The position numbers and the translations under genes are program-made. Shown one piece after another: positions 8,678-56,263 of a stretch of DNA of 64,000 nt; position 1 is the first letter of the stretch; each line of letters starts with the position of its first letter. A model generated the notes under the pieces. The model had not been told where the DNA came from. It made no database searches and saw nothing but the letters and a program-made list of their open reading frames with translations. Source of the stretch: Branchiostoma floridae. Lineage: Eukaryota > Chordata > Leptocardii > Amphioxiformes > Branchiostomatidae. Location: the NCBI RefSeq assembly GCF_000003815.2, contig NC_049980.1, positions 5,770,461 through 5,834,460 of the forward strand, in the 5' to 3' direction.

Positions 8678-11600
8678 TTTGTGACCGGGGATGTGTATGG
8701 GGTTTTCTGCTGCTGCTTCTGTGACTTTGGGGATGAGTTTGAGGTGCGCGATGCCACTGGAGAGGAACCGAAGGAAGTTTTCGTGGCCAAAGTTACCAAG
8801 GTAATGTACATGTACATATGACAATAATTGTTAGGCTATTAAAAATCTTAGGTGACAATGTATAAATAACAATACACTGTGAGAAAATACATGTAATTGC
8901 TACAGTCTGAGTCCTATAAATGTCTTATCATCCTCATCCCTCTGTAGGGTCAGTACCCAGTATTCATTCCCCCATTTTTGGTTTACAGCAAAGTATTGTG
9001 GAAAATGCCCCATAATCGCTACAAATCTGAGTGAGTCCTATCACTGAGTGGTTTAAAGAGGTCTGTTGCAACATACAAAAACACCATTTAAACCATATGA
9101 AGGCATTTCCTATAATAACACCATGTACATCCATAACTTCCCACTGTAGCCCCTGTAGTGTCCATACCCCCAGCACTAGTGTCTGTACCCCTACATACAT
9201 GTACATCATGTACTTCTACGTCATTTTGGCATAATTTTGCCAAGTGGCTAGGTTAACAGGTCAGGTCAAGGGTATTCCTGGCATTGAGGCGTTGTGTTCT
9301 TGGGAATAGCCCTTTCCTTCCCTCACTCCACCTCGATGTAAAAAACTGCACGTGGCCTTGGCTGGCCATAGGGAGTTGAAAGGGGGTGGACAGAGATGGT
9401 TGGGCACCACCTTCCTGATATCATTCCCTAGACACTTGGATAGCAACTCACTATTACCCATATGTGGCCCTCAAAAAGGCTATTTGTCTATACAACAGAC
9501 ATGTGTCTGTACATACCTTTACCTTTTTACCTATTTTGCTTCCAGGCCAGCCCCGGTGTGGTGACCTGTCTGGAGAACCGGATGCACGGGTTTGAGACGG
9601 GCGATGTGGTGACCTTCAAAGAGGTCACAGGGATGGACGCTCTCAACGGAACCAGTCACAAAATTAGTGGTAAGTGTAAAATGCAGGAGTATGCAAACCT
9701 GCCCAAGAAGACCAAGTTGGGACTAATGAAATCTGGTCTATGTGGACAGGTGGTAGCTTTAGACAGGATTCCTTAGGCTCGTGCCATTCGGAAAAAAATT
9801 GACCTGAACCTGGACCTAGTATCTTTCAAAACTTGTGAATGGGCGATACCCAAAGGATTGACTGTTTGGTGGAGTATCTGACACCCACTGGTGTTTTAAA
9901 ATCCTTATAATCTATACTAAACCACACTGATCTTCCTCTGTTTTAGACCAAGTTTGATTAGAAACTTGGTAAAAATGGAACTGTGCTCTTGTTATTTTCT
10001 TGGACCTGTAAGCCCCAAAACATGTGAACGCCTGATGGTACATGTATTATCTGTTCATTTTCTAATCAGTTCAAAATCGGTTCAACAAGGAAAAAGCTGG
10101 TTTTGTACCACTACCCACCCCTACCGGCTATGCAATACAAATGATACAAGCAAACAAATATACACAAGTGATGATGACTAATTTGTTGGCTTCTTCTTGT
10201 TTTTCTGCAGTGATATCCTCCTATGCCTTCTCTATCTGTGACACTACTGATGAGAAGTACCAACCTTACAAACACGGCGGGATCGCACGGCAGGTCAAAG
10301 TACCAACCACTGTCAACTTTGTAAGTATGTCCCTTGACATCTGCCAGAGCTTTAGCAACATGCAGAGTGTTAAGACTAGATGGTGATTGTTTATATTGAG
10401 CTTTATATACTTTAAACAGTGCATGCAAAAAATTAATGCTATTTCCTTGAATGTGTTGCCATATGTTATGCCCAATAAGATATATTTATCTGCCAGGTTA
10501 CATTCATGTACAATGTATGAAAACAAAGTGGGTTTGAGAGTCAGATGTATAGTATACAGCACTCCCAGTTAAGATTTTAAAAAATTGTGTACATTGTGAT
10601 CATTGTGATGATAGATATAACGCTAGTTCACCTTTATCCGCAGGTGCCCTATATCCGTTGTATTTAGAAATAGGATATTTAGGGATATCAAGCCGACGGA
10701 CAACGGTTTCAAATTGCAATTTTTCTTAAATACTGCAGTTTAAAACCACCGTCCGCCGACTTGATATCCCTAAATATTCCACTTTTAAATAAAGGTTACT
10801 CCGTGGATAAAGGTGAACTAACGTTACATGTACATGTATGTAACTTGTTGGAATTACATGACACTGTATGTTATCAGGCATATACACTTTTGTGATCATA
10901 TTTTCTACCATTCAACCAGGATTCCCTCGAGAAACAGCTGACCAGTCCAAACCTCCTGATAGTGGACTTTGCCAAGATGCAGGTTAGTTATAATTGTTAT
11001 TTGACAACTTAATATCATTATGTCTGTTTCCATCCAAAATTATTCCAGCATGTGCATATAGAATACAACGCGAGGTATTCCGTATCGCCCAAGGGTAGGA
11101 TTGCCCGCCAACCGAAGCTTGAAGGGCGATCCGAGCCACAGGAGGGTTGGAACCGAGGGCGATATGGAATACCCTGTGTTGTATTTGCCATATTTACTTA
11201 TTTTACTTACACGTCGTATATCATGACAACCCGAGCAAAGTCATGTTTATCGCAAAAAAAAAAGAGAAAAAGATGTGACATCAATGCACATCGTGTCAAC
11301 ACCTTTATTCATTAATTCAAACAAAAGAACCAAGCCAACAGTTTAATGGCTGATTGAATTGTCGATAGTGGCGCACACAAGTGAGGTCCAGTTGTTTGAA
11401 TCAAAATATGGGGCTCCGAGCAGTACTAATACAGACCGGTTGGAACATGGATATCAAACATAAATACGGCCAGGGTATGATATAATTTTCAATGTACCGG
11501 ATAATACTGAATCATTATTATATTCTTTGCATCGCAGTCATTTACTCATTTTTTATTGATCAATAATTTTTTTTCTTATGTGTATGTCAGGCACCCTCAA

Positions 11601-12318: not shown

Positions 12319-12379
<61 letters not shown>

Positions 12380-18300: not shown

Positions 18301-21300
18301 ATAACTTATCAATAAGCTTACTTAGTCTAATAGATAATATCTTGGCTTTCATACTACACAATGTAAGATTCCTGAATTGTGCAGGGCATGTACATGTCTA
18401 TAATATTTTTAATGTCTCGTATATCACGCTGTCATCATCACTGTCTTTATTTCTCCAGCCGATGTGTGAGTAACCAGAGAGCTCTGCTTGAGTCCGGCAC
18501 CATGGGACCAAAGGGACACGTACAGACCATCGTACCTCACCTGACAGAGTCCTACGGTAGCCAGGTAAGACCAAGAAAATCAACACTTAAGATATTGTCC
18601 TTGGGAAAAATATGTAGTCATGAACAAGTCAAATTGCTTTATGATTGTAAGATCTCATTTCTGTTCTTAAGTATCAAAACATCAGGAAAGGAGTCATGAC
18701 GTAACAACCTTCTTCAGAAATCACAGTTTATTATTGTGTCACAAAGTTTTAAAAGCATGCATGATTGTGTTCTAAAACCTTCCGTTATTAGAACCTAACT
18801 TGATCAAGTACCTGACTGCTGTGAAACTTGTTACAGACTTGTTTAGTTGATTCTGACTCAGAAGTAAATGTAATAAATCAGGGCTCGAAATACTTTTTTC
18901 TGAATATCTGCACCAGTGCAAGTAACATTGAAAATTACCTGCACCAGACAAATTTTACCTGCACCACTCTGGATTTAGGAAGTTTGGAATATACTCAAAT
19001 TGTTCAGAAACCATTGCTATTTGATTCTTTTATACGTTATAGGTGGTAACAGTCAATGCAGCTAAAAACAATTCACTAAGTCTTACACCTACACAAAATG
19101 TACATCATAGGACATTTATGTATAAAACCCAGTACATGGACCAGTGCAGGTTAGGTGCAGGTAGACACCAGAAATTCCTGCACAGCTCCATTTTTACCTG
19201 CACTAACGTGCATATGCAGGTAGTATTTTGAGCACTGAAAATGTTACATCAAATTGCAGTATATATTCCATGTTTCTTATCTAAAGATGACCATTAGTAT
19301 ATTTACATTGCTCAATTTTGTTTTCCAGAGAGACCCAGTTGACCACGATGTCCCCTACTGTACTCTGAAGTCCTTCCCTGCAGTTATAGAACACACTATC
19401 CAGTGGGCTAGAGACAAGGTGAGAACAAACACACGAACAGCTCTGAAACAAATGCTAACACCTGGTAGTACACCTGACTCAGAAATGGGTCTACAGGGAA
19501 AGAAGTGCTTTTTGATTTTCACTACTGGAGCAGGAACATTGTCAAAGTTACGTCAACATATTTTCCAAAATGTTCTTTTTTCCTTGGCCCTTTCGAGACT
19601 CTCCAAGAATGTCCTTTTCAGGTTGTATTATGATGGTTAAAGTGTTTAAAAACACAGCACATTTCAGGTGTAACTTTTGTAAGAGAGGGCATTGTCCCTA
19701 GCAGCTTTGTTTAAATCAGTGACGTGTAAACTAGGTACAAATTCTAAATGTATACTGTGACAAATTGTTAAGATTGAATTGATCAAACATATTGATGTTA
19801 TTGAATTCATTGACAGTTTGAAAGCATGTACAGTCAGAAGCCTTCACTATACAACAAGTTTTGGTCAACAAATGGCTCTCCAGAAGAAATCTTGCAGGTA
19901 AGAAATTGTATTTTCTTTTACCACTTTTACAAAAATTGACTGCTATTCTGCTTAGGTTTAGTGCATCCTTTTTTATTGCTTTGCTCTGCCATGTATTGTG
20001 CTAATCTTTGGCTGAATCATAGTGTTGGTAAATTACAGAGGGTTTGTGTCATCTTTCTTAGATGTTGGAATGTGTTGTGCAAAAATTTGGCCACTGTGAG
20101 ACAATCACAATGAATATAAGATGAATTTATTTATCTTCACATAAGGAAAAATATTCTATTGTTTCAGACCCTGAAGGGAGGGGCACAGTTAGACGGAGCT
20201 GTGCAGTGTGTAAAACTATTGAAGAACAGACCACACAGATGGGCAGACTGTGTCACAATGGCAAGAGTCAAGTTTGAAAAATATTTTAATCACAAGGTAA
20301 GATCTTTAGGGACTTTTCATAACATACTTGTCAATGAATTTCATTTTTTCACTGCAAATTTTGTTTATTTCTTTTTTCCAAAGATTATAAAAGAACTTAA
20401 CAAAAAGTTAACTTCATTAAGGCCTATATTGTTTTCTGTCCTGAAAAGTATAATTTGTTGTCCTTTATATTATATTAAGTAACAGAAAGCATACTACTCA
20501 TATGCTCTCTTTTGCAATATGACATTCTCTTGCAACAGCATTATCCTGATATTAATGGAATAGCTTTGAAACTTAAATTTGTCAAAAAGGCCCATGGTAG
20601 TTTCATGACACTTTTTGTATTTTAAGGAAAAGCTATTTTGAAGCAACTGTATTATTCTTTATACTGAGAAAGGCTATGTTAGTATCAAGAAATCTAAAGA
20701 TGTTTGAACTCACTATTTGTCCACTTTCAGGCAAAGCAACTTCTCCATACATTCCCTCTTGACACAGCCATGAAGGATGGAAGTGAGTCAGACATTGTCC
20801 TCTTTCACCTTCAAACATTGACAGACTCAGAATGTAGTGTTAATGGTGAATCAGTTAGTTAAACATTTCCTGTTACAGTAGAAGCTTTAAGTATTTGGTT
20901 GATGTATTTGATGTACAGTGTCTCTGACAAAAGATAGTGGATGCTATCTGAAACATCTGACCATTTCCAAAATCATATCCAGTTGCTTGTGTGAGTAACT
21001 GCTTTTTGGTGCATCTTATTACCTGGATGTCTAACCTTTGTCGATGTGAAGAGGATTAAGTCACTCAATAGATTCCCTTAGAATGGCAACTTTTTACCCT
21101 ACTTCCAAAATCTCCTTACCTAGATGCCCCCCCCCCCCCCCCGCCCCCGCTTCCACAGTATTCCTGGATTGGTCACTTTGCTACCTCACCATCACCATTT
21201 ACACAAAAAATAAAGTCCTGGCTAGATTCCTGTACACAAAATGACTTCAAGTTGTCACATTTTACAACTGTTAATACTCAGTGTATAGCATTACAGTAAA

Positions 21301-31552: not shown

Positions 31553-31585
31553 TTACCATGATTGTGTTAAATTGTTGTAAAACTC

Positions 31586-34500: not shown

Positions 34501-37500
34501 AACCACGTTCCCTCCACTCTGGTCGATAAAGTAGTTTATCAGCTCATAAACGTTCAAGATCGGAGGATGCTGAAAACGAAAAAAAAAATGGTCAGACACA
34601 CTCAAGTAAAAGAATCTTCCCTTTAAACATCGTCAAAGCCTTGCATGTCTCAAGCAAAAAAAACTGCTAGGGGGCACAAAACTGCATAACTTCGTCCTTG
34701 CATCTAATCCTGCTGTAGTACCAAGGTCGGCCGCAAGGAGGCCCAAAAACGAAACTAATTGTCAGGAGACAACACCTACCCATGCACTAAATGTCATGGC
34801 AAACACCTGGAAAGTTTTTGGAGACATAGTGTCAAAACCGCACGTGGCAAACATTATGCGATTAAGGTTACAACCTTTAGATTTTAGATATCTAATGCGC
34901 AGTACCTTCTTGTCAATGTCGAGGACGAAGTGGCCGTTGGTCATGTTCACGATGTAGTGTCGGACTTGCGGCTCCCTGTAGTACACATATGGGTCATCAG
35001 GTTTCGAACATCACGGATAAAAAAAAGTAAGAGAATCAAGCTTGCCTGAAACCAGCATTCTCACCATATAGAGTTACTACTGTTCTATTAATTCGTGCTC
35101 GATCACTTTCATATTTCCTTACCCTTCCACTGGTAGTCTGGCGGAGAGTACAAGCCCTCCCGGAGCGGACCCACTACTCCGGAGCAGCATGTTCCCGTTC
35201 ATGATGTTCTCCGACAGCACCTGTTCCACCTGGTCACGTGGCAGCTGATGAAAGAACCACCTGGAACAACAACAGAACTGCGTCTTGACTCTCACGAGTA
35301 GTGAAACATCATTTGAAGGTCCTATCATGTAAACTCATCTGTGTAGGTAGTAATCATAGTGCAATGATAAATTTCTTCCAACACAAAGGTGTACACGGAT
35401 CAAATTTTAAATGACCACTGTCGCCTTCTCAGGATCAATACTGATGACCAATCAGAACAGACCATAAAGGAGGCCATACACATCAGGTACTCTAGCCATC
35501 ACTGATCAGAGACGGTGGGCGTTATAAACTTCCTGGCACATTTGACCAATTGCTGACGTCACGTATCCGCAAGACCACGTGTTAATTAGATCATGTGTCT
35601 GTTCTGAAGTGATTGGTCATCATTATTGATCCTGAAAAAAGCGACAGTGGTCGTTAAAAATTTGATCCGTGTATACCTTTGTGTCTTATTGCTTAGATTC
35701 TACTAAAAGTATCACAAAGTTTAATACAAGAAATTTTTTCTCCAGACTTACGGTGGTCTCACTCGTCCCCTTTCCTTCAGGTAGTCTGGGTAAAACCTGT
35801 AGGCGTGCTGGAAAAGACGGGGACAATGTAATTTGATCGACATATTTTTTTTGTTGAGGTACATATGAAACGACAAAGACATTACAAATAGAAACGTAAT
35901 TAGTCTATTACAGTATATGTAGAATATACTTGGAACTTGAATGCAAGACAAATTTCGGAATGTCAACTAGTTATGCATAGCTGTGCATAGTTTGTTTGTA
36001 CGTACATATACACTGTCAGTTCATTTTCTAAAATACGCTTTTACATGAAACATCACTCCAGCCATTAAGAGTCATTGCACGAGAAAACCAGGCAAAACCA
36101 GACAGAGGCCGGAAGATGGGGGTCGGCCACATCGGCTCATACTCCGATGTGGCGTTCTGGAACCCCCCCTCTGAGACAATTTATGGCTGAAAAGTACTGA
36201 AATTTCGATGGCTATCCTGAAAAATCTGATGAAGGTACAAACATAACTTTTGCATTTTCATATAGTATAGGTTCTGAAGTTTTATAGACAAAACGTTGAA
36301 GATGATACATTAAAGTTAAGAAGGTGTAATAGGGGGCTACTTGAACCACTGAAAGCAGAATTTTTATCGCTGTAAGTTTTAGTCATTTTAATGCCCATTA
36401 TCTGATGTGAGCGGTGACTGTAGTGGTGAATGGTTTTACTGTTTGCTGGGGAGAGGAACATCTACTTATTCAAAAACAATCGTCGTCTGATTCGGACATA
36501 CATAACGCGAGCCGTGAGAGGGGGGTCTTTATGGGGAATTTTCGGGTTTTGGGGCTATAGTAAATCGGGTGATTATATTACACTATGGGAATAAGTCATG
36601 GTGTGTAAGGCGGCAAATGTCGGCCTTTCTAGAGACTTAACCACAGTTAGTTCCTTGACAGAATGTCATTTGAAAACATATGTTTTGGCGATGAGAAAGA
36701 CTGGTTAGACGAGTCATGAGGACCACATTGACGTGCTTGCTTACAGAAGGCCACAAAAAGGAAAGCCTTGTGGCTTCAGAACACATTATTGACTGATCCT
36801 ACAGCACAATTACATGTAACAGCCTTGGTTTGTGTACTGTATCTATCTCACCATTTCGACGGCAGCAGGCGCTGGTGTGTAAGGCGGCGGTGCGCCGGAG
36901 GCCTCAGAGCCGACGCTGTCGTCTCCGCTCCCGCTCATGTTGGTCCCGCTCTGACCGCTGGAGTAACCGGAGGACGAGGAGGCGGATCTCGTCACCTGAA
37001 CCGTCAAATGATACCAGTATAGTATAAACCGTACATGATACAACATGCGATCACAGTGACGCCTACTGAGCCTCTTTGGTAACCTGTCAAAAGTGTTTCA
37101 AATACACGAAAACGGGTTTCACTGGCGCAAGTTCCGCTACTACTTGGCTACTTCACAAGTCATCTGTGCCAGCTGACTATGAACTTTGAAAAATCAAAGC
37201 CAGGAAAAGTCATATTCTGCTCAGACATTCTGATCATACCTTACAGAGCATACTCCAGTTTCTTTATTCCTGCCAATCAAGTTAAATCGTTGACGTCAGA
37301 GTGAGCACGGTAGCCGGTACGGAACCTGGCACTCCGGCTCTGGAAGAAACGTTCTCTTCATAACAAATATTGCACCGTCGTCGTGATTTTACATAAATTT
37401 AGTTGCCACGTGACGTAGCAATGTTTGCTTCATTTGCTTATCGAAATTGTAGTATGTGTACTTGATATGGTCGAATGTGATCAGGAACTATTGTATCTTA

Positions 37501-40500
37501 GTGTCACAGGTGGCACTTTCTTTTCTTTTCTGTCTGTCATTTTTACCCAGGATTGCCTCTGTAGGTACTTTGAAACAGAAAAAAAAGTCTTATCATGAAA
37601 GCTCATCTGTATTGGTAGTAATCATTGTACAATGCTAAACTTTCTTCCAACACAAAGGTATACACGGATCAAATTTTCAACGACATCTGTCGCTTTCTTC
37701 GGGATCAATACTGATGGCCAATCATTTCAGAACGTAAACACGCGAGAGTTACAGGCACGTGACCTATAATCTTGTGACGTCAACAATTGGTCAAACGTGC
37801 CAGGACGTTTATAACGCCCATTGTCTCTGTTCAGTGATGGCTGGAGTGCCATGGCTTATATGGCCTTCTTTATAACTCTTACAGAGTAGTCCTGTTCAGT
37901 ATTCAATATTCTGACTTTGGCCAACTCTTTGCCCAATGAAACGTTATGGTCCGGTAATTCATTGTGAAGAAGGTTCCGTACCTTGCCGCAGTGAGGAGGT
38001 ACCGGGGGCGGAGGGCTGGCTAGGCGGTACGTCTCCTGCTCGAGGGTCCGCCGGACGTCGATCAGTTGGCCCGGGAGGAGGTTGAGATCCTCAGGAACAA
38101 CGTGCTGGATACAAGGTCAAAGTTACACAATGTTTTAATACTTGGTTATCATACTGTGCAACGGGCCTTTCCACCTAACCTGTCGGCCGGAAGAGAGTCA
38201 CGTGCCGCCCACAGCACCACAAACATGCCTGAGGGTTCTACTGGGTCAAGAGAGGGTACGGACATACAAGATTTTCATCAAAAATATATTGAAAACCTCT
38301 AGCCACACTGACTTAATTCTATCGATGGCATCCTCTGGAGACCCCAAAACTAATGCGCGAGGGCAAAAAAAAAAGAGAGAAAAAATCTGACAAAACAAGT
38401 GCTGCTAAACCACAGGAATTAACTGGCATCTAGTCCATTGTTTCTAAGACTTTGTTTGTCTTATTTTTACCTCCAGTAAGACTGTAAGGGACAATCGTTG
38501 CCATTTCAATCATGTTTTACTGTCATTCTTGTTTAAAAAGGGGAAAAAATGGCACTGTGGTCCCATGCCCTGGTCATATGCCACCGTAAGCTGGAAAGCA
38601 GATCCTCTGGCAAGCATAGAATTCTGATTGACCAGGGATGCTTTGGGGTGACATGTGGCCACAGTTTTTTGTGACGTTATTTGAGAACAGGAGGACATCA
38701 ATGTGCTCGCGGATGTCATTACTGTGGCCCGACTACACCACCCATATACTGTGGGATGGTACCACCCTAAATGTAGAAGAACACATGATACTTTTGGTAT
38801 TAGAGTAATTGTTGCAACGTACCTCCGTTTTGTTTTTAGTGTGTCGGTTTAAAATTTGTCCATTGTTATTTGAATACAGTAGATTGTTTTTCACATGGTA
38901 GACACGTCGGGGCATTATCAGGAAGTTAGGTCAAAGGTTCCAGAAATCCCGGAATGGGTTATTTTATTTCCTGTCTCCACGTTCTGCTGTATATTGATGT
39001 CTAATTGGCAGTATTCAACCAAAAAATTTACTTAAAATGAAATAAGAATAGAATGAAAAAAAACACCTAAAAATCCACAGAACTGACACAGAAATGACAA
39101 AACTGTTGCTATGTATATGGCTTTTATCTGGACGAACTACTACACATGTACATGTACATATACAGGAACAGCATCATTCTCATGAATATCGTAAGGCTAG
39201 GGGGAAATTACAATATACCCAGGAAATTGCTCACCGTGTCCTCTCATACAACGGGGGCACACACGATTGCTTTGCCGTGGGCGTGTAGGTACTGTAAATG
39301 TTTTTAAGTTCGCGGGGATTTAATTTCGCGGTAGCGGGAAAAAGGACTTTTCGCGGTGGATTTAAGTTCGCGGTAACACCATAGACTGCAATCTAATATC
39401 ATTATAGAAAAATGTTCGCGGTGGTTTTAAATTCGCGGTGAAGTGGTCACCGCGAAAACCGCGAACATTAATCCACCGCGAACATTTCTGCATTTACAGT
39501 ATTTCCTGCTAGGAAATTGCCACATACCGTGACGTGGTGTCCTTGTAATAGTTGTATAATGCTCGGGGTCTTTTTTCCAGACATCGAAAACCTATTACAC
39601 TTAGTCTTGTATGGCCTCGAAAAAATGGCAATAATTCTAAATGTTAGGCCTCTAGCTAGGTTACAGGGTTGTTTGGAGCCTGTAGCTGATTAGATACTCT
39701 CCAAGCAGAGGTTAGATCGCTGCCTTGTTACTCTGTGACGGAGAGGGTAACCTCTGACGACAGAGTATTGTAGTTGTCAGATGTGATGAGTGTTAGCATC
39801 TTTATCACTATGTTCCCTTTGTCGTATTCGTATGTAGTTTGGCATGTATGTCGTCTGCACGTGTGTGATGATGCACTTTGTTTTTTTACGGCATCTGTTT
39901 GTATAATTGATGCAACAATTTCAGAAATCACCACTATATTCCTGGTATTGTGAAACAGGCCATGTGGTTTGGTGTCTGATAATTAGCCTATCTTTAAGCA
40001 GATATGGGTTTACGATTGTCTAAACATGTATCACTACTTCACCGAATTATTATCAGGATCAACAATGGTGATGATATGGTCATAAGATGGCCTCAATTTT
40101 CACTCCCTTAACAGATTCAAGCATTAGAATCTGATGTAAGTCTAGTTCACCTTTATCCGCCGGATAACCTATATTCGTTGCTTTAAGAAAAACATGTAAT
40201 TTAGGGATATCAAGTAGACGGACGGTGGTTTCAAACTGCAATATTTAAAAGAAAAAACACCAATTTGAAACAACCCATCGACTTGATATCCCTAAATACC
40301 CTATTTTTGTAAACAACGGATATAGGTTACCCCGCGGATAAAGGTGAAGTAGCGCCATACATTGTATGTATATGCTAACCTCTGAACTTACCGTGGCTAT
40401 CGTTAAAATGTAAGCTTTCCAAACGTCCCTCAGTTGAGCGCCGATTACCTGAAAAGAAAAGGAGACATCACATTTAAATCATTTCTCACTTCAGTAGAAT

Positions 40501-43500
40501 TTCGTTTGCTATTCTGAACTATTTGTAACACCCGTGTTTAAGAGTCATTGAAATCTTTTCATGTAGACAAAGTCTTAATGCAAGATTGTTATTGTAACCC
40601 CATTTCTACAAGAGGCTGCGACCACTAAGTGGCAAAATATTAATTTTTGCTATGTTACTATTTGTTATGTTGCTTTTGTTGTTGACGTTGTACAACCTAG
40701 AGATAACACTGTTAACAGGTTCAACAAGTCTTGTTTGTCCAGAATGTACCACATTGTGTTACATAAAACAAGAATTTACTCCATTCGCCAGACAAGTAAA
40801 TACAGGTCTTACCAACCTATAGCACGACAACAAAGGATTTGTGAAGACAACATAGTACCGACACGTGCGCATGCATATTCTATTCAACACTATTCTCCGT
40901 CAAGTCACAGCCTTCCCAAGTAGACGTTATGGTCCAGCTGTTTTTTATGTGTTCTGGGACGTGTTTTGTCGGGCTTTCTATTTTGTACCGTTTACGGGGA
41001 CACGGAAAAAGAAACCCTGACAAAATACACTTAAAACGAGTGTAAAACAGCCGGAGTCGAACCTCTGTTTGGAGAGTAACACAGAGACAGAGTGAGAGAG
41101 ACTGTTCGACTGATAGAGACTATCCTACATCGCCAGACTTATCCCCCCCCCCCCCTTCACTCCTCGGTACGTTACCAATAAATAACGTATTACCTGCCAC
41201 TGACGAGAGGTAGTGGATTCTATCTGAAACGTCTGACCGTTTCCAAAATCATATCCATTTATTACAATTTTACGTATCTTATTACCAGAATGTCTAACCT
41301 TCATCGACAAAATTAACGAATCACATGTCAGATATTGACGGTATAACGTTACAGTTCTATCGAACCGTCACGAAATTTAGTCCTCAACATGATCATTACA
41401 TACACTGAGCGGCGTACCACACTATTTGTGTGTGTACAGTAATTAATAAATAATGATACAGTACACACAAATACTAGACTAGTACGTACACACACTGTGA
41501 CGCAAACACACACATACGAACACACAAGGACACATACACACACACACGCACACACACACACGCGCACACACACACACATGTACACACACACACACCTGTC
41601 AACCCTGTCGTCCCAACAGGTAACACCTGTAGACAAACACCTTTTCTCTGTCTTCCCCCACGCCCTACAGCTGTACGCGTTCCTGCTCTACCCACCAGGA
41701 TACCGGTAACGGTTCACCAGGTATCCGTGTGACCCCGCGTGCACTCAACAACCACCCGTCATGCGAGCGTGCTTGTTGATTGTGGGCGGGGCTAGTAGCG
41801 TTTTGTACCGCGATCGATAGAGTTGTGACCCGCTAGCAGCATGTCACTGGGCTCACACGTGCGTATATATTCAAGTCCGTATAAGGTCCGTATGGAAGTC
41901 TTGGCCTCTTCCAGGCTCCACAGATCGCTGGAAAATTCTAGAAATTGGACAAATATAGACACATAGCACACCAAATGAGATAGCTGTCCGAGGAACATGC
42001 TTTGCAACAAGCTAACTCATGGCACGTTCTTTGGATATATTTGTTCAATTTCTACTATTTTGTCCAGTGACCTGTGGAGCCTGGTAGAGGATAAGCATTC
42101 CATACGGACCTCACACGGACTTGGATATATACGCACGTGTGAACCGACCTTAACCCCATTGCTTGTACGTAAACGCATAAGGTCGCGTCCGCGTATGTAA
42201 GGTAAATATTCCGTCTATAGGTTTAGTAATTACTTTTGTACAAGGAGAGATCATATGCAATGGTCCTTACTGATACATACGTTTTGTTCTCTATGTGAAA
42301 TAGTTCCAGCAGACATTTCTGCATCTCAATATTGTTTGTTTTTTTCTCAAGTGGCCAGACAGACCTTTTTTAATCAACGCAAAACAAACCTTGGAATATG
42401 TAACGTTAGTTGCGTTCGTCGCTTGAAAAAAATGTTTTCATAAACATATTTCACGATCATACGATGATATGTTCAAAGAAGACCTTGTTGCACACTAGTG
42501 AGTGCGCTGTAGAAGAAACAAAATGAAAATCGTATGAATCACCACGGTTAAATAATATGTCTGCATCCACGAGAAAGATATAGGTATGTCTCTGCAGCTC
42601 AACTGGTAGCGGCCTCACAGTCACAGTCGAGCTCTTGGTTCAAATTATGTGGTAACTTGTAGACCCCGCTTCAAATCCTGGGAGGGGCGTCTTGGTTGGC
42701 CGGGGCTTCACTCGTCTTTCGGGAGGGACGTAAAATGGGGTCCCTTGTTCAAGCACGTAAAAGGCCGGGGTGCATCAAGCACGTTAAAGGGGAATGGCTA
42801 GCAATTCGTCCCTGTAAAAATATACCCTGCTACAGAAACAGCAAAGAAACTTGCTGGCATACATGTATGTGGCACTTGGTACTACAACGTCACAAACCAT
42901 GTGGCTAAAAGTTGACATTGACCTTCGGTTTTGTCACATGCCAAATAGCAATCCACATACAAGCACCCGGAAGACAAAAACCCAAACACCCGGACACATA
43001 CACACAAAAATGCCCCTGTAGTTCCAGAGTAAGTTGCTAGGGGGACCAAACATACATCGCTTCTTCCTTACACCACAAGCTATCTGCCACAAAATCAAGA
43101 CCATAGCAATTCCAGGTCAAAAGATACCAAAAATAAAGTTCTGCTGCAGTACCAAGTTCACGCACCAGGTGGCCCAAAATCGACCTTGACCTTTGTCTTC
43201 CCAACACCTACCCATACCAAATATCATTACAATTCATCCAGAGGTTCTTGAGTTATACTGACCGCAAATATCCGGAAACACACACACACACACACACAGA
43301 CAGACACGCCAAAAACTATACCTCCATTTTCATGGAGGTAACAATGCCAGAAACTTTATGGAGGTAACAAGAAGAGCGATAAAGATACGTGGTTTACTTG
43401 GCATTTATTGTCTGCTTTTATCATACCAATAATGATTGTTTTTGCCACATGTAATGACGCACAAGAGCAATTGTAGACCCTTTGCTCAGTGAAGCTCAGT

Positions 43501-46500
43501 TTGGCTTCCGGAAAGGGAGAGGCTGCACCGATGCAATCTTCGCACTCAGACAGCTCTGTGAGAAGGCTTGTGAGTACCAAAAGCATCTCCGCCTTGTTTT
43601 TGTCGACCAGGAGAAAGCTTTCGACCGGGTAAACAGGAACCGACTCTGGCAGATCTTGGAACAGTACGGTGTAAAGGGCCAACTTCTGGAGAATATAAGA
43701 GCACTTTACCATAACAGCAAGAGTGCAGTACAGACACCAAGTGGTCTCTCTAGCTGGTTCCAGATAAGGTCCGGAGTGAGACAAGGATGTGTACTGTCAC
43801 CTCTACTGTTCATAGTGTACATGGACAAGATAACAAAGGAAGCCAACCCAGATCCTGAGGACTTGAACGAACTGCTTTTTGCTGACGATCAAGGCATTCT
43901 GAATGAGAGCAAGGAGGAACTCCAGCATCACACAGATGAACTAAACAGTGCATGCGATCGTTATGATATGAAGATCAGCATAGGAAAAACAGAATCGATG
44001 TCAGTTGGTCGCTGCCCAGAGAAACTGGAGATCACAGTCAATGGACAACTCCTCAAACAGGCCACAGAGTTCAAATACCTGGGGAGCATTTTTACAGAGG
44101 ATGGGAAATTAGACAGGGAGATTGAGACAAGAATACAGAAAGCAAACTCTGTCAACTACCAGCTAGCACCTCTGCTAAAGCACCCAAGTATCCCTATGGA
44201 GACCAAGGCCAGACTCATCAACGCCATTTTCGTCCCGACACTCACATACCAGTGTCAAACCTGGACCCTGAACAGAGCACAGGAGAGGAAACTCACAAGC
44301 TGTGAGATGAGGGTCCTGAGAAGAGCAGCTGGCAAAACAAGGAGAGACAGGTTGAGGAATGAAGTGGTTAGAGAGTTGGTGGGAACCAAACCTGTCTTAC
44401 AGTTCATCGCCAAGCAGAGAGTGCAGTGGTTTGGCCACCTGATGAGATTGCCAACCACGCAGCCAGCGTTACGAGCCTACACAACCAGGCACTCAGGTGT
44501 CAGGGCAAGAGGAAGACCACGCCGCAGGTGGATAGAGGGAGTGGCAGAGACTGTCCGTGCACATGGCCTGACTCTTCTGGAGGCTACACACCTGGCTCAA
44601 GACAGATGCCTACATCTCCCCGCGACGCCCCCCCAGGCATAAGCGGAAGGATAAAGTAAAGTAAGTAAGTAATGATGGACACAATACACGATATGTGTAA
44701 TATACTGATACCATAATGGCCGCACCGCACGCCTTCGCGGTTCATCTATTATTCAGTGAGGTCCTCCATACTGGTTTAACATTCTTTCTACGAATATTGA
44801 CTATGAAATATTACCAACGATATCAATACTAACCGCCAATTTGTCTGAAAAGGGTGTCGCGCGTGATCCCAACCACGTTAGTGGTAGAAATATTGTATCG
44901 GACGGTCGCTTTGTTGTGCATGTACGTGGGGATTGCATTAATATATTGATGTCATAAGTGGTGGTGTAACTGCTTTGAAATACTGTAAACAGTTCGAGGA
45001 AAATACAACGTTTTTAGCGTTACAATCAGTCGAAACTTTAATACGGTGCTCTGTAAATGTGTATGTACACTGTGTTTTATATCTGTATGCTGCCACTTGA
45101 CAAAAATATGATATCTTTCGCTACGTTGTATTCTTCTATTTAGATGTGTTTATATGCCCTCTCTATTAGTTAAAAGACTACCCAAAATCTGTTTGTGTTT
45201 TAACGTTATGTGGAAAAACACAGTAGTCTACCTACACCTTTCAAAACACGTTATTTTTCGCAAAGAATACTCAATATCCCCATTGTGTGGAACTTATAAT
45301 AATAAGGATAATAATGATAATATCGGGTGTATTTGCAGCTAGTAGGTAGCCATTGTGTTGAGTAATGAGGCTGATTAACGTGGTCGAGGCGCCTCCTCGA
45401 GCACGGAACCCCCGTTTCCAAGACAATTTCGTGGAAATCTTGTTTGGACTACAGCATAACATTACGTCGATGTATGTTTCGATGACCACGTTTTCATCGT
45501 TAACAATGATTATAAAAAAAACAATACTCCACGTACCAGAAACTTGTGCAGCTCCTTGTTGGACTTGACAATGAACTTGTGTTGACCTCTCTCCTTCCCC
45601 TTGGCCTTGGGATATTCCACAGTCGTTGTCCGGTCCAGTCGTGCGTAACCCAACTATAATGCACGAGACAAACACAAGACACCCTTACTGTCACACCTTG
45701 CGCACTCGTGTTTTACGTAATACAGAATGAAGCCAGACTATTTCTATCTGGACTGTTCCATTCTAAATCTAGGGGAGGCGAAAGGTACTTTCACAACCAC
45801 AGGTACTGCCCATTAATCAAGGATTTGTAAAGGTTTAGAATTTGCATGCAAATAGAATTTGAGTAAAGAAAATTAAAATTAGAATATTGGGTAATGACAA
45901 GGATTTAGCTTGAACGATTTTGAAATAGTTGAATTATATACAAGACAAAATGGGTTGGTGAGGTTGTATTGAACGTACCGCCCTAACGTAGATTTTACCT
46001 ACATATGTATATGTCTTCCATTTTGATTGGTCGGCAGAAGTTCATAACCTCACGTTCGTCCAATACGCTGACGCCTCGTATGATATTGAAACTGCGCTTT
46101 TTTAGCTTTAACCCTATTCAGACCGGGGGGGGGGGGGGCTTTTGAGGCCCGCGCTAAATTCGATGTCCTATAACGCCAGAACGGCTTACGCTAGAGCCAC
46201 CAAATTTGGTGAGTTTTCCTAAAATATTGTTGGCAACAATTTTACGAAGTTTGACAAATTTTCCATTTTTTCTTGTTGCCATGGCAACCGTTTGTTGACA
46301 GGCAGTTTTGCCAAAAATCACTATTTTTGGTTCTAACTATGTATTTTTCACATTTATTTGCTATATTACTGCGATTTTGTGACATCAATAAAATCTTATA
46401 TTATTCAGCATATCTTTCATAATTACATATGCATAAATTATGCTAATTTGATGACGTCATCAGCCCAAAATCCAAGATGGCGGACCGATTGGCCAGATCA

Positions 46501-49318
46501 AGAATAACAAGCTAATTATCCCTTAAAATTTGTAACTACCTGGTATTTTTTCATCAAAAACCATCTAAATTAATGAATTTAGTCTATTTCCATTGCCCTT
46601 TGTGATTATTTGTTGCAAAAAAAGTATTTTTAAAAATTCAAGGTGGTGGATATAATATGGCGGAGCCCAACTCGTATCTTAGATGTGCATGACGTCATTT
46701 TATGACGTCATATTGACGTCATTGATGTTGCTATTGGCAACGCAAGTCGTAATAAACATCATTACTCTGTTATCTGCACTTGTTGTTACATTTTTGTAGC
46801 ATAACTTGAAGTTTTCTGAGAATACCCATTTTTCATGGGTTTGGCCAATGTAATCAAATTGATGACGTCATAATTACGTCATCTTACGCCAACGTAACGT
46901 CAAACGTCACATAATCGTCAGATATTATGTCTAAATCATGTCCTAAAAATTTGGTGCCCCTACGGCACGTCGTTTTAGAGTTATAGGACTTAGAAGTGGA
47001 GGGCCTCAAAAGCCCCCCCCCCCCCCCCGGTCCAGGGATGACCAAAAAAGCCCGGTCTGAATAGGGTTAAGACTTTATTAGGCAATGTTGGTTTGATAAT
47101 ATGGATAACATCGTCTGGAAACTCCCAAACTGATGCGAGCTTGCTAATAACCCCCACAATAGCTGCTGAGTATGGTGTATACCGCATATAAAACAACACA
47201 ACACCCTTATGTTAACTTTAAAGTTAAAACGTTAATACTACTTTAGGCTGTCACTATTAATTATCTGTAGAAATGTCTGAAATGACCGTCTGAAAGTTCG
47301 ACTTAAGTGGTAGAGTGTTTGCCCCATACTCCAGAAGTCCTGGGTTCAAATCCGCTGATATGTCGCCAATCGTGGGCCCTTGTAAAAGGCACTTTACACG
47401 ACTGTCCTCACTTTACTCAGGTGATAATGAGTACATAGCTTTGGTTAGGGCCATCCCTCGGATAGGACGTTAAATGGAGGTCCCGTGTTTGAATTTGAGG
47501 TGAGCCACACCTCGAACATGAAGTACCCACCACACGTATGGAATAGAGTAAGCTAGGGGTCCTTCCAGGTATGAGTGGTTAATCCCTTCAGTCATATGGC
47601 CGCACCTGGGGCAATTACTGTCGTATTGTCATAAAAATGAGTAACTAGCTTTGGTCAGTAGGGCCGTCCCTTGATGGATAGGACGTCAGATCCCGTGCAG
47701 CGATTGAGGAAAGATTCACATCGAGCACGCTAAAAACATCCGCCAGAATAATCGAAAAGAGTAGGGGCCTTTCCCAGAGTGAGCAGATCAAACTTTACTG
47801 TTTGCATGGTCTCCGAGTTGACATCTTGAAAAGGTCACCTGTTATGTCTATCCTTCCACAAATGTGGTTAATCTCAGTAGAATGACGCGGTTACATAGGT
47901 CGTGCTATCGCCTTAAGATTCCGATGCCATAAGATTTTCAAGCAGGCCGTGACAGGACCAACCACTGACATGGATCCAAAATAGCATTTTGTGTTCCAAA
48001 ACATGTTGAATTTTGCAGTTAGACGTACATTTTTGTCCTCCAAAATGCCCAAAGTTACCAACCGTGCGATGACCGCACGACCTATGTGACCACGCCCTAA
48101 CCCCACTTACCTTAAATAGATACAAAATATTGATAACAAAAAATACGTCTTGTGTAGGTCCCTCTATAGTCCCTTCCAAGAACGCCCTGTCTCCTCCCTT
48201 CCTGTTTGGCTAAGCACACAAAAACCGTCCCACGCTCCTACATAGATAGGACAGTCTCCCGTTCTAGTACAAGCCGCGCTCTGTTCGTTTGCAGTGTACC
48301 GTGGTATATAATCCTGGGCCTGGCTAGTCATGCTTACAGGAGAGTAACTAAGACAGGAGTAGGGTCATACATACAATGCGAAGGGACGACTTAAAGTAGT
48401 TTTAAGAGACTTGGGTATATTTTGTAGCAAGCCGTCTATGTCTGACAGCCTCCCCTACCAAGTAGGACAGTGGTAACGTCCATGTTGAACTTTGTAACAA
48501 CATTCCACAATTATCGCTCATTTGTCATAGTTAAGAAAAATTACTGTCGGGTCGGTAAGCCGATTTCGTTTCACTGATAAGCGGTGCCATAGAAGACTCA
48601 AACGAAAGCATTTACAAGGGAAGAACCTTTAAAATTCGCAATACATTTACGAAGGGAGAAAGAAAGATTTTAGAGGAAAGGCTTAAGCTATTCTTTTGAC
48701 GTTAGCCAATTCCAAGTAAAAGTCCCGTCTTTGGCGATCAGAAAAGGAATAGATTCTTTTTGTGTCAAACTTTAAACTTTCAAGAGCGAGTTCATGTGTC
48801 TGCATTTCTTTAGATACTTATGAGACAGAATACTGAAGTCAGTTGAACTCCCATGATAAGGAATTAACTATCTTTTTAAAAATCAAAACACAGAAGAAAA
48901 GAAGGAGGAAAAAAATACGTGAATACTCTTTTTAGAAAGTTGAAATAACCATCATCAGACTACTACCACCACTATTTTGACTCAATATCGACATCACAGT
49001 TTAGGACTGTTCTGAACCGAATAAATGTGATGACAAATAAATTATCATGTCTGTTTTTACCGTGTGTTGTTCCTGTTTCTCCGGGTGGTAGAAAAATATG
49101 ACGTCTGCCTTGATCTCTGCCCAAATTCTCTGATAGCCCTGGAAAAACAAAATCAAAATGTAAATCAAGTGATGAAAATACAAATAAGGAGGCTATTCAA
49201 TTCTCTCCGATCCCCTTCTTCGTTGCTCTCTTTCTTTCTCTCTTTCTCTCTGTCTGTCTGTCTTTCTGTCTCTGTGTCTCTCTCTCTCTGTCTGTTTCTC
49301 TCTGTCTCTCCTTCTCTG

Positions 49319-49373
<55 letters not shown>

Positions 49374-52300
49374 CTTTTTCTCTCTGTCGTATGTCTCTCT
49401 CTGTCTGTCTGTCTGTCTGTCTCTGTCTCTCTGTCTATCTCCTTTACTTTCTTAAATTGTACAGGTACAGGTGCATGTAACCCTAGTACCTGTACCTGGT
49501 GTAACCGTTTACGTAGTACGCAGTCCTGAGGCCATGTTGATTAGATTAATTGTTGACATCCACGCACGCATAAATTTGTGTCCCTTTCCAAAAACAAAGT
49601 TTTCCACCATACCGTGAATCGTACAACGCAACTAACAATATAAGTCATTGCTTTAATTGCAAAGAAAAGAAGCGGAAAACGGATACGAATAGTGTTGAAT
49701 GTCAAATTCAATTCCAAGGTCAAAGAAGAAGATATGAAAAAACAAAAGAGATTAATCTATTGTTCGTTATACCATACTCTGTCCGTGTGTCGTTTGTTCA
49801 ACCTTCCTGGCACTTAGATTCCATAATGGAGGCACCATTTTTCTTTAACAATTTTCCCACTTTTTTTGCACGCTCGCATCAGTTTTGAAGTTCTCAAAGG
49901 ATGTCATCCATATAACCGAAACAACACGGCCTAACTCGCAGTATACACAACATGTTATTTCAACAAGGAAACGCTTTGTTATTTCAGTGGTCTGAAGTAG
50001 ACAAACAAAACAAGTGCCGCTGCTATCGGGTTACCCTGCCGATTGTTGTCACCCATGTCGCTTGTAAATAGAGCGAACCCCACAACGTGCTTACATGTGG
50101 TATATCACTGCACTTGGGGCACCGTTGCGGCACTGCGAGGTTCGAATTCGTTCACTGCGGCACTGTTGTGCTATTTTCGCCTATTCTTTATAATTTAGAT
50201 ATAACGTAATATGCAAAAGTATGACTTAGAAGACAACAAAATACAAAAGACATTCCAATTCGTTCTTTATCTCTGAAATTCGTTGAGTAATCTTTCGAAC
50301 CCCACAGTGCCGCACGGGTGCCCCAAGTGCAGTGAGATACCAACATTAACGTTCTTGTGAATGCAAGAACGTAAGTACAATGGAAAAACTTTTAAACAAG
50401 AATTACGGAAGACTGTTCAAAAGAGATCTATAATGAATTGGCTATAGGTATTGTGACGGGATTTCTTGCGTTGTATAATTTACGAGCAACAGTTTGCAAC
50501 GTGGAGCATACTAGTCACCTATTATTACACAAGAATAGAATTAAAAGGTGGAGGTATTGTTGTGGGACTTTTTTTCTGTCTATATTCTCGTGACTATTGT
50601 GCGCTTTCATTATCCCTAAAAGGTTGACATGATCTACCATATGGCTTGTTTGTTTGGAACCCTGACTTGATGGTTTTTGTTCAATTTTCACATTTTCTGG
50701 CTTCCTGGTCTGTCAAATTTATTCATCGTGACTTTGTTTGTTTATATTACAGACACCTTATACCGTAACACACCAGGTTTGTACTGAACAGTACAAGCTG
50801 CATATCCGGACAAATTTATCTGATACACTCACACCGGCAAAGGACCCCTCCTCTTTTCGATAAGAGTGGCGGGTTCTTTCACGTGCTTGAGCCAGTGTGG
50901 CTCTCGAGCTCTATTCAACGTCCTATCTGAGGAACGTTCCTAGCTGGCTCCTAGCTAAGTTAGGTACATATTGACACCAGATTGAAATGTGGAAAGTCGT
51001 GTATAAAATGCATTTTCCAATGACACAACGTTTGAGCATATAAGGGGACTCGACCCATTGACCTCTGAGCCAAACATCCTACCATTATGCACGACAAAGG
51101 TGATAAACTTGAATCACCCTGTTAATACTTTACTCGAAAATATTTTGGTAGCAATTATTTATTCCTGGCCACTGTTTCATAGCCATAGGGAGAATACTGT
51201 ATTTGAGCCACACCCTATACACCAACTTATTTGAAATACCTCTCCGACATAAGTAAGCTTAGGAGCTAGCCCTCGGCAAACTCTTCTATGTGGGCCGACA
51301 AAATAGTAAGATCTGTTTGAGACTTTCAAAGAAGTCTTCAACCGCAGAGCTTTGGATGGAAACTGCTGAACGTTTTCTGACACGCAACCGTCCCAAACGT
51401 TAAGTTCTACGGGCTTAGGGCCTTCTTATGGGGTTATGAATCGTATAATTCGGCAAAAAAGGAATAATTGGCCAGGAGAATCGGCCCAAGGGAAGGTTAA
51501 TATTACCCCCTCCGGCTATAGTCAAGCTCTACATATATAATATGGTGGCCAAACGTTAACTAGCCTGAAGGCAAAAATATTATTTTTTCTACAGCCAGAT
51601 TTCCAAAATGATGTTCGACTGGGATGTTTGGGGAGACAAAGGATAAAATTGTCCAACTTGGCTATTCCATTTTTTTTTTTACATTCTGTGTGTTTTGTTG
51701 TCTTTTATATCCTACTTTTCTTCCGGAAAACTAGTACTGCCCGGCCGGGCCCCGGTTTGGAAATAATAGCATTAGTTTGTCTGGTAGATACTCATTGAAT
51801 GTACCGGGGTCATTGCTGTAGTTATTGTAGGACAACTAACCCATGAATCAAAGCTACGAGCAAACGAAATCTGACACACATGCACAACATACCCCATACG
51901 TAATCAGCCAAAGGTATGATTACCTCCAAGTAAAAACGTGTACGATTCAAAACCATATACATGAGTGTATCAGTCTCTACCAGACTCTGGCCTGGCCGAA
52001 TAGTAATAGGGAACTTTGACTAAGTTAGGAATAAAAGTCTAGTTGGATTTAATTGGCCTAGGAGTGAACTGTCCGACCGCCGTATAGCTAGATAGACTGC
52101 ATGCAAAAGACTGAAATCCCATGACAACTTATTTGTCCCTATTTGGCCAAATTTTTCTCTTTTTCAACCAGTTAACACGTCTACCTGGCGACTATGAGTA
52201 TATTAACACAGACCCAACGTAAATACTCTGAAAGAAATAGGGTAGTGGATTTTCAGATGTTTGGCTTTATGGTTCATTTGACGGAGACATTCCACGCGCC

Positions 52301-52611
52301 TGTAGTGAAATGTCACAGCTTAGAGAGCTTAGGTCGCGGACTGACAAAATGCAGTTCAAGCTATCCACAATGACAGTTCAACCGTTTAGGACTTGCCGTG
52401 ATATAACACTAAACCATGCCGCTTAAAATGACTGTTACTTGGTACACTAAAGGTAAACACAAGGTAAACAACTTCGACTCACCGACTTGAACTTTTTCTC
52501 CAAGAACCCCTCGTGATATTTTGGTAGGTCTTGGTTGAGATTGTTGGCGGCCTTCCAGGGCGAAGACGCCGAAGACCGTCGCCGGTCGCCTGGTGGCGAC
52601 CAGGTAGTCAT
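31586..52611 (-). CDS. Signal-transducing adaptor protein (STAP1/STAP2-like), PH-SH2 adaptor
   Basis: An adaptor predicted to dock at membranes and phosphotyrosines downstream of kinases and cytokine receptors. Fourteen exons (listed 5' to 3' of the gene) join in phase to 453 aa: 52483-52611, 49061-49138, 45537-45653, 40392-40448, 37982-38104, 36852-36995, 35752-35807, 35123-35260, 34906-34975, 34437-34569, 33551-33646, 32935-33024, 32448-32507, 31586-31656. A PH domain (about 33-130) opens with LPKYHEGFLEKKFKS and closes with DVWKAYILTI, both matching STAP2 closely. A Pro-rich linker (151-216) contains a PPPY motif (204-207). The SH2 domain (about 236-330) starts WFFHQLPRDQVEQVL, keeps the phosphotyrosine-binding Arg262 (LLRSS) and has RHYIV. 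The acidic tail carries YVTQ (423-426), a YxxQ motif of the kind that binds STAT3 in human STAP-2. ATG 52611 is the first in frame after an upstream stop. Human STAP2 is about 403-449 aa. Confidence 0.9.
33990..34116. repeat. Single arm of a palindromic repeat (host of a MITE)
   Basis: It matches each arm of the palindrome at 41848-42152 (GTGGAGCCTGGTA, ATTCCATACG, ACTTGAATATAT). The copy is interrupted at its right end by the MITE at 34117-34394 and resumes as AATGTGTGAACC. Confidence 0.6.
34117..34394. mobile_element. MITE with 66-bp inverted ends (CATCCTCCTACGCAGGGACA)
   Basis: A 278-bp element in a STAP intron. Its inverted ends continue through AACAGCCAAA, GCCTGTCT and CTTTCAACC. The short interior holds TATATAAGG. 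It is inserted in another repeat, so its boundaries are supported by comparison with the uninterrupted copy at about 42140. Confidence 0.8.
34640..34830. repeat. Dispersed repeat family D, partial copy
   Basis: It contains GCTAGGGGGCACAAA, TGCTGTAGTACCAAG, GGCCCAAAA and ACACCTACCCATGCA, matching the fuller copy at 42960-43345. It lies in a STAP intron. Confidence 0.55.
35323..35700. mobile_element. MITE with CACAAAGGTGTACACGGATC ends, complete copy
   Basis: It lies in the STAP intron between exons 35752-35807 and 35123-35260. The inverted arms run from AACACAAAGGTGTACACGG through GACCACTGTCGC, TCAGGATCAATA and GACCAATCA. The interior contains GGGCGTTATAAAC and TGACGTCA. A truncated, oppositely oriented copy is at 37605-37872. 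Confidence 0.8.
37605..37872. mobile_element. Same MITE, truncated and inverted copy
   Basis: One terminal arm is intact (AACACAAAGGTATACACGG...CGGGATCAATACTG). The interior reads as the reverse complement of the interior at 35323-35700 (GTTTATAACGCCCATTGTC, ATTGGTCAAACGTGCCAGGA). The other arm is missing. It lies in the STAP intron upstream of exon 36852-36995. Confidence 0.75.
39290..39501. mobile_element. Palindromic MITE, CTGTAAATGC ends, copy 2
   Basis: It matches 5610-5825 but is less decayed: repeated TTCGCGGT blocks, ends TACTGTAAATG / CATTTACAGTA. It lies in the STAP intron between exons 40392-40448 and 37982-38104. Confidence 0.8.
40143..40351. mobile_element. MITE with TAGTTCACCTTTATCCG ends, copy 3
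   Basis: The third copy of the family at 10619 and 15068. It has TAGTTCACCTTTATCCGC at one end and GCGGATAAAGGTGAAGTA at the other, with GATATC on both arms. It lies 41 bp from STAP exon 40392-40448, on its 3' side. Confidence 0.75.
41474..41600. repeat. (CA)n-rich microsatellite
   Basis: An imperfect run of CA dinucleotides with CG and TA interruptions in a STAP intron. The long His/Thr and Cys/Val ORFs here are repeat artefacts. Confidence 0.85.
41848..42152. repeat. Large palindrome, arms about 130 bp
   Basis: The left arm has CTCACACGTGCGTATATATTC...CTTCCAGGCTCCACAG and the right arm has CTGTGGAGCCTGGTAGAGG...GGATATATACGCACGTGTGA. A single arm is found at 33990-34116. It is probably a MITE with long inverted ends. 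No ORF. Confidence 0.7.
42580..42900 (+). mobile_element. tRNA-derived SINE, copy 2
   Basis: A tRNA-like head (CTGCAGCTCAACTGGTAGCGG, CTTGGTTCAAAT) is followed by the common SINE body (GGGAGGGACGTAAAATGGGGTCCC, AGCACGTAAAAGGCC). It lies in a STAP intron. Confidence 0.55.
42960..43345. repeat. Dispersed repeat family D with (CA)n tail, fullest copy
   Basis: Blocks in order: GTTGCTAGGGGGACC, CAAGACCATAGCAATTCCAG, TCTGCTGCAGTACCAAG, CCAAAATCGACCTTGACC, AACACCTACCCATACCAAAT, then (CA)n. Other copies are at 34640-34830, 59935-60125 and 62640-62850. It ends with a small palindrome around CCTCCATTTTCATGGAGG. The element type is unknown. Confidence 0.65.
43455..44671 (+). mobile_element. 5'-truncated RTE-clade non-LTR retrotransposon
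   Basis: It begins inside the reverse-transcriptase domain and ends in a short 3' UTR with a (TAAG)n tail, typical of RTE elements. It lies in the STAP intron between exons 45537-45653 and 40392-40448, antisense to STAP. A possible target duplication GTAATGA flanks it (near 43451 and at the tail end). Confidence 0.75.
43482..44642 (+). CDS. RTE-type reverse transcriptase, C-terminal part
   Basis: A 386-residue open frame that also continues upstream without an ATG (the frame is open from about 43455, reading ...AIVDPLLSEAQFGFRKGRG). Conserved blocks are FVDQEKAFDRVNR with the catalytic Asp, RSGVRQGCVLSPLLF, and LLFADDQGIL with the catalytic Asp pair. The C-terminal RTE region has FKYLGSIFTEDG, RVQWFGHLMRLP and RGRPRRRWIEGV. 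The endonuclease and the fingers part of the polymerase are missing, so it is a dead fragment even though the frame is intact. First codon shown is TTG, not a real start. Confidence 0.8.
   Translation: MLSEAQFGFRKGRGCTDAIFALRQLCEKACEYQKHLRLVFVDQEKAFDRVNRNRLWQILEQYGVKGQLLENIRALYHNSKSAVQTPSGLSSWFQIRSGVRQGCVLSPLLFIVYMDKITKEANPDPEDLNELLFADDQGILNESKEELQHHTDELNSACDRYDMKISIGKTESMSVGRCPEKLEITVNGQLLKQATEFKYLGSIFTEDGKLDREIETRIQKANSVNYQLAPLLKHPSIPMETKARLINAIFVPTLTYQCQTWTLNRAQERKLTSCEMRVLRRAAGKTRRDRLRNEVVRELVGTKPVLQFIAKQRVQWFGHLMRLPTTQPALRAYTTRHSGVRARGRPRRRWIEGVAETVRAHGLTLLEATHLAQDRCLHLPATPPQA
46108..47070. mobile_element. piggyBac-type MITE with TTAA duplication, 963 bp
   Basis: The ends read TTAACCCTATTCAGACCGGG and CCGGTCTGAATAGGGTTAA: TTAA target duplication plus CCCTATTCAGACC inverted repeats, the piggyBac format. 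Next to the ends lie a G tract (about 15) and a C tract (about 16-17), and GGCTTTTGAGGCC is mirrored. The A/T-rich interior has five perfect TGACGTCA sites. There is no transposase. It lies in the STAP intron between exons 49061-49138 and 45537-45653. Confidence 0.85.
47290..47600 (+). mobile_element. tRNA-derived SINE, copy 3
   Basis: Head AAGTGGTAGAGTGTTTGCC (A box) and TCCTGGGTTCAAATCC (B box). The body reads AAAAGGCACTTTACACGACT and CTCAGGTGATAATGAGTA. A second partial body follows at about 47630-47800. It lies in a STAP intron. Confidence 0.7.
47884..48096. mobile_element. MITE with ACATAGGTCGTGC inverted ends
   Basis: The left end GACGCGGTTACATAGGTCGTGC mirrors the right end GCACGACCTATGTGACCACGCC. 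It is about 213 bp, has no ORF, and is a single copy here. Confidence 0.65.
49202..49440. repeat. (TC)n/(TCTG)n microsatellite
   Basis: About 240 bp of pyrimidine-rich repeat on the plus strand, 63 bp upstream (in gene terms) of STAP exon 49061-49138. On the transcribed strand it is a purine tract, so it is not the splice acceptor's polypyrimidine tract. Confidence 0.85.
50097..50343. mobile_element. MITE with ~50-bp inverted ends
   Basis: Left TATCACTGCACTTGGGGCAC and right GTGCCCCAAGTGCAGTGAGA are extended by GCGGCACTG / CAGTGCCGC and GGTTCGAA / TTCGAACC. The element is 247 bp with an A/T-rich centre and no ORF. It lies in the first STAP intron. Confidence 0.8.
50757..51095 (-). mobile_element. 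tRNA-derived SINE, copy 4, minus strand
   Basis: The 3' end (on plus, left) is CACACCAGGTTTGTACTGAA, shared with the copy at 52984. The tRNA-like head on the minus strand includes a GCATAATGGTAGG A box and a GGGTCGAGTCCCC B box. It lies in the first STAP intron. Confidence 0.65.
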
Positions 52612-56261: not shown

Positions 56262-56263
56262 TC

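Follow-up and report, generated by a model that had tools for sequence, protein, structure and literature searches.

A convergent UBA6 and STAP-type gene pair in amphioxus and its probable descent from the common ancestor with mammals

Our analysis of a 64,000-nucleotide stretch of Branchiostoma floridae DNA (in the following, the window) confirmed a pair of tail-to-tail genes, UBA6 on the plus strand and a STAP-type PH-SH2 adaptor gene on the minus strand, with 4071 bp between the two stop codons. The best explanation, we infer, is an adjacency that came from one ancestor, has the same orientation in mammals and was retained passively. We assign a probability of about 0.72 to the reading that the convergent UBA6-STAP pair is ancestral and was passively kept, and that the amphioxus adaptor is a descendant of the STAP gene as it was before its duplication. 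The UBA6-STAP pairing is probably very old.

Gene models and their mammalian counterparts

The features of the window are compiled in Table 1. In the UBA6 model the exons join into a single open frame of 867 aa that ends with TAA at 27514. Exon edges of both models were set by eye and a script demanded AG/GT at internal edges. Hence the canonical splice sites exist by construction, which does not apply to the joining of all exons in one frame in the UBA6 and STAP-type models. Pfam recognized the domains E1_FCCH, E1_4HB, ThiF, UBA_E1_SCCH and E1_UFD in the UBA6 model. A chance origin of the open frame of either gene is out of question because of the Pfam E-values, which were 1.3e-80 for UBA_E1_SCCH, 5.2e-60 for ThiF, and 8.2e-9 for the SH2 domain of the adaptor. 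Over the part that is present, comparison of the E1 with PDB sequences resulted in 1196.5 bits for human UBA6, 771.1 bits for UBA1, and 521.4 bits for UBA7. Thus, judged by sequence similarity, the E1 of the window is UBA6 and not UBA1 or UBA7. The 12-residue motif in exon 16, located by exon table, translation, and alignment to human UBA6, is presumably the E1 catalytic-cysteine motif.

Table 1. Positions of genes, gene parts, and other features in the window
Feature	Position	Strand	Remarks
Class A GPCR ORF, single exon	1885-3195	-	open, 437 aa; 7tm_1 2.7e-19
UBA6 (ubiquitin-like modifier-activating E1)	8678..27514	+	29 coding exons, human residue 183 to C-terminus
Minisatellite, UBA6 intron 8	13521-14526	+	~23 copies
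Minisatellite, UBA6 intron 13	17004-17762	+	14-16 copies
UBA6 exon 16	19329..19418	+	12-residue motif
Stop-to-stop interval	27515..31585	.	4071 bp, GC 0.37, AT-rich
AATAAA, UBA6 strand	28711, 30465, 30476	+	sequence matches
AATAAA, STAP strand	31451, 30342, 28878	-	sequence matches
STAP-type PH-SH2 adaptor gene	31586..52611	-	14 coding exons, 453 aa, TGA at 31586-31588
Exons 11-14, acidic C-terminal tail	31586..33646	-	tyrosines in YDEE, YLEN, YVTQ
Exons 8-10, SH2 domain	34437..35260	-	arginine of GNMLLR at residue 262
Exons 1-5, PH domain and STAP-type extension WKAYILTIATHVVPEDLNLLPGQ	37982..52611	-	PDB match
GPCR ORF	54367-55527	-	387 aa; 7tm_1 match
GPCR ORF	58026-59357	+	444 aa; 7tm_1 match
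GPCR ORF	60697-62070	+	458 aa; 7tm_1 match
Fourth receptor ORF of the right side	~63200-64000	+	closely like 60697-62070; open to the right end of the window, cut there

The first-pass annotation had placed UBA6 and a STAP1/2-like gene tail to tail, ending at 27514 and 31586 and about 4 kb apart, and both models and their ends agree with this. Its outer coordinates for the pair, 8678..52611, are likewise correct, except that UBA6 does not start at 8678. The exon beginning there corresponds to residue 183 of the human chain 7pvn_A and is internal. A tblastn search with human UBA6 residues 1-215 (provisional query letters) found no UBA6 exon preceding residue 183 in positions 1-8677. It recovered the exon already placed, here at 8675-8776 (E 2.7e-11), and the best other match within 1-8677 had an E-value of 1.1 and was on the minus strand. 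Either UBA6 continues to the left of the window, in which case one of its introns may enclose the GPCR frame at 1885-3195 on the opposite strand, or the gene has lost its 5' exons.

Several repeat-related sequences were associated with the two genes. A non-LTR-type retrotransposon frame of 792 aa (5860-8235, plus strand; RVT_1 6e-30) lies directly before the first UBA6 exon of the window. UBA6 introns 8 and 13 each hold an expanded minisatellite, with units of about 43 bp that are similar in the two introns. Intron 3 of the STAP-type gene contains a reverse-transcriptase ORF on the opposite strand (43458-44639, plus; RVT_1 4.8e-31).

The adjacency in mammals was taken exclusively from published gene lists, which imply order, not strand. 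For human chr4:65.1-68.8 Mb a copy-number table gives the order EPHA5, CENPC1, STAP1, UBA6, GNRHR, TMPRSS11 (PMC2995745). CENPC, STAP1, UBA6, and GNRHR are reported from one 0.4-Mb region in sheep (PMC8327097), and STAP1, UBA6, and GNRHR are listed in succession in goat (PMC9902602). On pig chromosome 8, the windows "CENPC STAP1" and "UBA6 GNRHR" are given as 0.1 Mb apart (PMC13406021). The assumption of the first-pass annotation that STAP1 and UBA6 are direct neighbours in human is therefore supported by the human list, in which they are consecutive as in those of sheep and goat, and by the nearby windows in pig. As for orientation, we take human STAP1 to be on the plus and UBA6 on the minus strand of chromosome 4, and thus the two genes to be tail to tail.

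As in the human block CENPC-STAP1-UBA6-GNRHR at 4q13 (gene list in PMC2995745), UBA6 adjoins a gene of the STAP family in amphioxus. In contrast to this block, the pair in the window is flanked by 7tm_1 receptors. As far as seen, the conserved order is limited to UBA6 and STAP (of the flanking genes, the GPCRs compared). By PDB sequence, the left GPCR is nearest to CB1, GPR6, LPA1, and S1P1. No GnRH receptor was among the best 60 of 191 PDB matches from which this ranking derives, and an identity with the GNRHR flanking mammalian UBA6 was rejected. On the right side, the receptor ORFs at 54367-64000 form a cluster of similar sequences. The fourth copy was considered as a broken gene, which was dropped since its frame is open to the end of the window. 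The ORF at 60697-62070, the only one of the cluster searched against PDB, had 16 matches with E <=1e-8, namely to S1P1, opsin, odorant, serotonin, and trace-amine receptors. A relation of the cluster to a 4q13 receptor such as NPFFR2, which we take to be a 4q13 gene, is without support from these matches. Another feature among the GPCR ORFs is a match to the full Rfam model of 5S rRNA (57268-57384, plus; 42.9 bits, gathering score 38), which is either a solitary 5S gene or a repeat of 5S origin.

In our literature searches, to which supplements were outside reach, no report in print of the UBA6-STAP pair in amphioxus was found. Of the papers retrieved that name both STAP1 and UBA6, PMC13244917 and PMC11874128 among them, none dealt with amphioxus according to its title, and those that combine UBA6 with amphioxus had titles with no relation to gene order. 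STAP1 and CENPC are absent from the main text of the GnRH-receptor evolution papers PMC3912137 and PMC4232701.

The intergenic interval and the question of regulatory constraint

The pair may have been held together by selection, either by a regulatory element located in an intron of the neighbour or in the 4-kb interval, or by co-regulation of the 3'-ends, as in genomic regulatory blocks. A chromosome-scale amphioxus study (PMC7269912) describes the order of genes inside linkage groups as largely scrambled between amphioxus and vertebrates, and the adjacency probably outlasted this large-scale scrambling. For other pairs of metazoan genes, such as wnt7-atxn10, a similar constraint has been put forward (PMC8851819). 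The introns, which reach 5.1 kb in the STAP-type gene and 1.2 kb in the part of UBA6 inside the window, also are in line with selection, as are the far AATAAA sites (30465 and 30476 on the plus strand, 30342 and 28878 on the minus strand). These are sequence matches and not mapped ends, and their use would result in overlapping transcripts. In contrast, use of the sites nearest to the stop codons (28711 plus, 31451 minus) would keep the transcripts about 2.7 kb apart. Moreover, an Rfam search of the 4071-bp interval gave no match, and its repeat content was confined to 3 families of short direct repeats plus 4 inverted pairs of 20-30 nt with about 80% identity. Neither UBA6 nor STAP is known as a classic developmental regulator. 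Taken together, we regard retention by selection as unlikely. Regulation shared by the two 3' ends, or an element in an intron of the neighbour, was raised as a question by the first-pass annotation and is hypothetical for UBA6-STAP. A regulatory constraint dating back to the chordate or deuterostome ancestor, e.g. a STAP enhancer in a UBA6 intron, could after genome duplication have left STAP1, the copy beside UBA6, under ancestral control and freed STAP2 for new expression; we consider this version improbable.

Affiliation of the adaptor with the STAP family

The adaptor shares with STAP1 and STAP2 the order of PH and SH2 domains, the STAP-type extension of the PH domain, and the retained arginine of the SH2 domain. 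It differs in a longer, serine-rich linker of about 80 aa between PH and SH2, in an SH2 domain that begins with PWFF, a motif absent from STAP1 and STAP2, and in an acidic C-terminal tail. Pfam detected the SH2 domain C-terminal to the PH domain at residues 236-318 (E 8.2e-9, 35.9 bits). The PH domain (E 7.5e-4, 20.4 bits) scored below the curated cut-off of 25.1 bits.

Among PDB sequences, the PH domain with its extension matched STAP1 (1x1f) with an E-value of 1.5e-12 and 51 bits, whereas the next of the 4 matches had an E-value of 0.34 and 14 bits. The SH2 domain also ranked STAP1 (3maz) first (E 4e-7, 32.6 bits; best 60 of 166 distinct sequences with E <=10), closely followed by LCK (E 2.8e-6, 29.8 bits) and STAP2 (E 4.3e-6). 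Because LCK trails STAP1 so closely, the SH2 domain alone does not prove membership in the STAP family, and on the sequence comparisons this membership is carried mainly by the extension of the PH domain together with the order of the two domains.

In the PH domain, 36 of 130 positions (28%) were identical to human STAP1 and 45 of 127 (35%) to human STAP2, compared to 51 of 130 between STAP1 and STAP2 (provisional STAP2 PH letters in both comparisons with STAP2). For the SH2 domain with flanks the identities were 25/119 between adaptor and STAP1, 26/99 between adaptor and STAP2, and 38/97 between STAP1 and STAP2. Both by identity (34% over 88-89 columns) and by path length the adaptor SH2 is nearest to LCK.

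The adaptor could be some other PH-SH2 protein rather than an ancestor-like relative of STAP1 and STAP2. The nearness to LCK by SH2 identity, the kept PWFF start missing from both STAP proteins, the small distance between the SH2 scores, the PH score under the Pfam cut-off, and the weak branch uniting the adaptor with STAP1+STAP2 against the other SH2s (70/87 in the tree that included LCK, BTK, GRB2, and SRC) would fit such a protein. Against it stand the 51 bits with which the PH domain and the VP..L.LLPGQ extension match STAP1, compared to 14 bits for the next PDB match, and the PH identities to human STAP1 and STAP2 given above. Hence, we consider an origin outside the STAP family improbable.

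The tail was of no help in this assignment. STAP2 is described as having a C-terminal proline-rich region and a YXXQ motif (PMC9776019). The adaptor tail holds YVTQ, and YxxQ arises in 11% of shuffled tails. A homology to the STAP2 tail is not claimed since its alignment score was reached by 256 of 2000 shuffles (provisional STAP2 tail letters).

The position of the adaptor relative to the vertebrate duplication was addressed by SH2 trees, which comprised 109-115 columns and few rows with long branches. The larger tree contained the adaptor, human STAP1, STAP2, LCK, BTK, GRB2, and SRC (provisional sequences for the last three). In this tree STAP1 and STAP2 formed a group against the five others, including the adaptor, with 98/92. 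With LCK as sole outgroup this group received 92/90 under a mixture model and 98/97 under LG+G4. Forcing the adaptor beside STAP1 or STAP2 alone lowered lnL by 9.6-10.0, and the AU test yielded p-values of 0.039 and 0.045 for these placements in the larger tree, and 0.020 for each of them with LCK as only outgroup. An adaptor falling inside only one vertebrate STAP clade, which the first-pass annotation had named as evidence against its proposal, was thus not observed, nor did the mammalian gene lists point to the other such outcome, a STAP1 that is not adjacent to UBA6. A position outside STAP1+STAP2 is as expected of a pre-duplication gene, although the link of the adaptor to the two proteins is itself weak (70/87). 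The proximity of the adaptor SH2 to LCK indicates that the tree pattern may in part result from derived vertebrate SH2 domains as opposed to a canonical, PWFF-starting one in the adaptor. The proposal of the first-pass annotation, a pair that may be chordate-wide and an adaptor that is the pre-duplication ancestor of STAP1 and STAP2, is partly supported.

Origin and retention of the pair

That the adjacency arose independently in two lineages by coincidence is very improbable: the comparison has two points only, this window and mammals, but once the order within a linkage group (300-1500 genes) had been fully scrambled, two particular genes would, by a simple formula, be adjacent with a probability of about 0.007-0.001 and convergent in about a quarter of these cases, and the position of the adaptor outside STAP1+STAP2 suits common descent. 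In view of this low probability, common descent of the adjacency is much the better reading.

According to the favoured reading, an ancestral pair kept passively, the ancestor shared by amphioxus and mammals would already have carried UBA6 and one STAP-type adaptor gene next to each other in convergent orientation. The amphioxus adaptor would go back to the gene whose duplication in vertebrates gave rise to STAP1 and STAP2. The STAP1 copy would have stayed beside UBA6 and the STAP2 copy would have ended elsewhere, presumably on chromosome 19. Retention of the pair would have been passive, in that no break fell in the short interval, rather than due to selection. The products would act separately, UBA6 as ubiquitin-activating E1 and the adaptor as a PH-containing docking protein for phosphotyrosine.

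Long-kept pairs of unrelated neighbours are known from other systems. Among chordates, 372 putatively ancestral bidirectional (5'-5') promoters have been counted (PMC6292497), and another study regards wnt7-atxn10 as a regulatory block (PMC8851819). Like these, UBA6 and STAP are unrelated genes that were probably kept together for a long time. Unlike the bidirectional promoter pairs, they are convergent (3'-3') and do not share a promoter. Old pairs being not rare, the retained UBA6-STAP pair is a further case of a known phenomenon.

If confirmed across vertebrate classes and in an outgroup, the pair would settle which vertebrate STAP copy holds the ancestral locus. It would furthermore be a clean orthology marker for a divergent signalling adaptor, and would provide a convergent rather than bidirectional case for asking whether constraint or luck has preserved old gene pairs.
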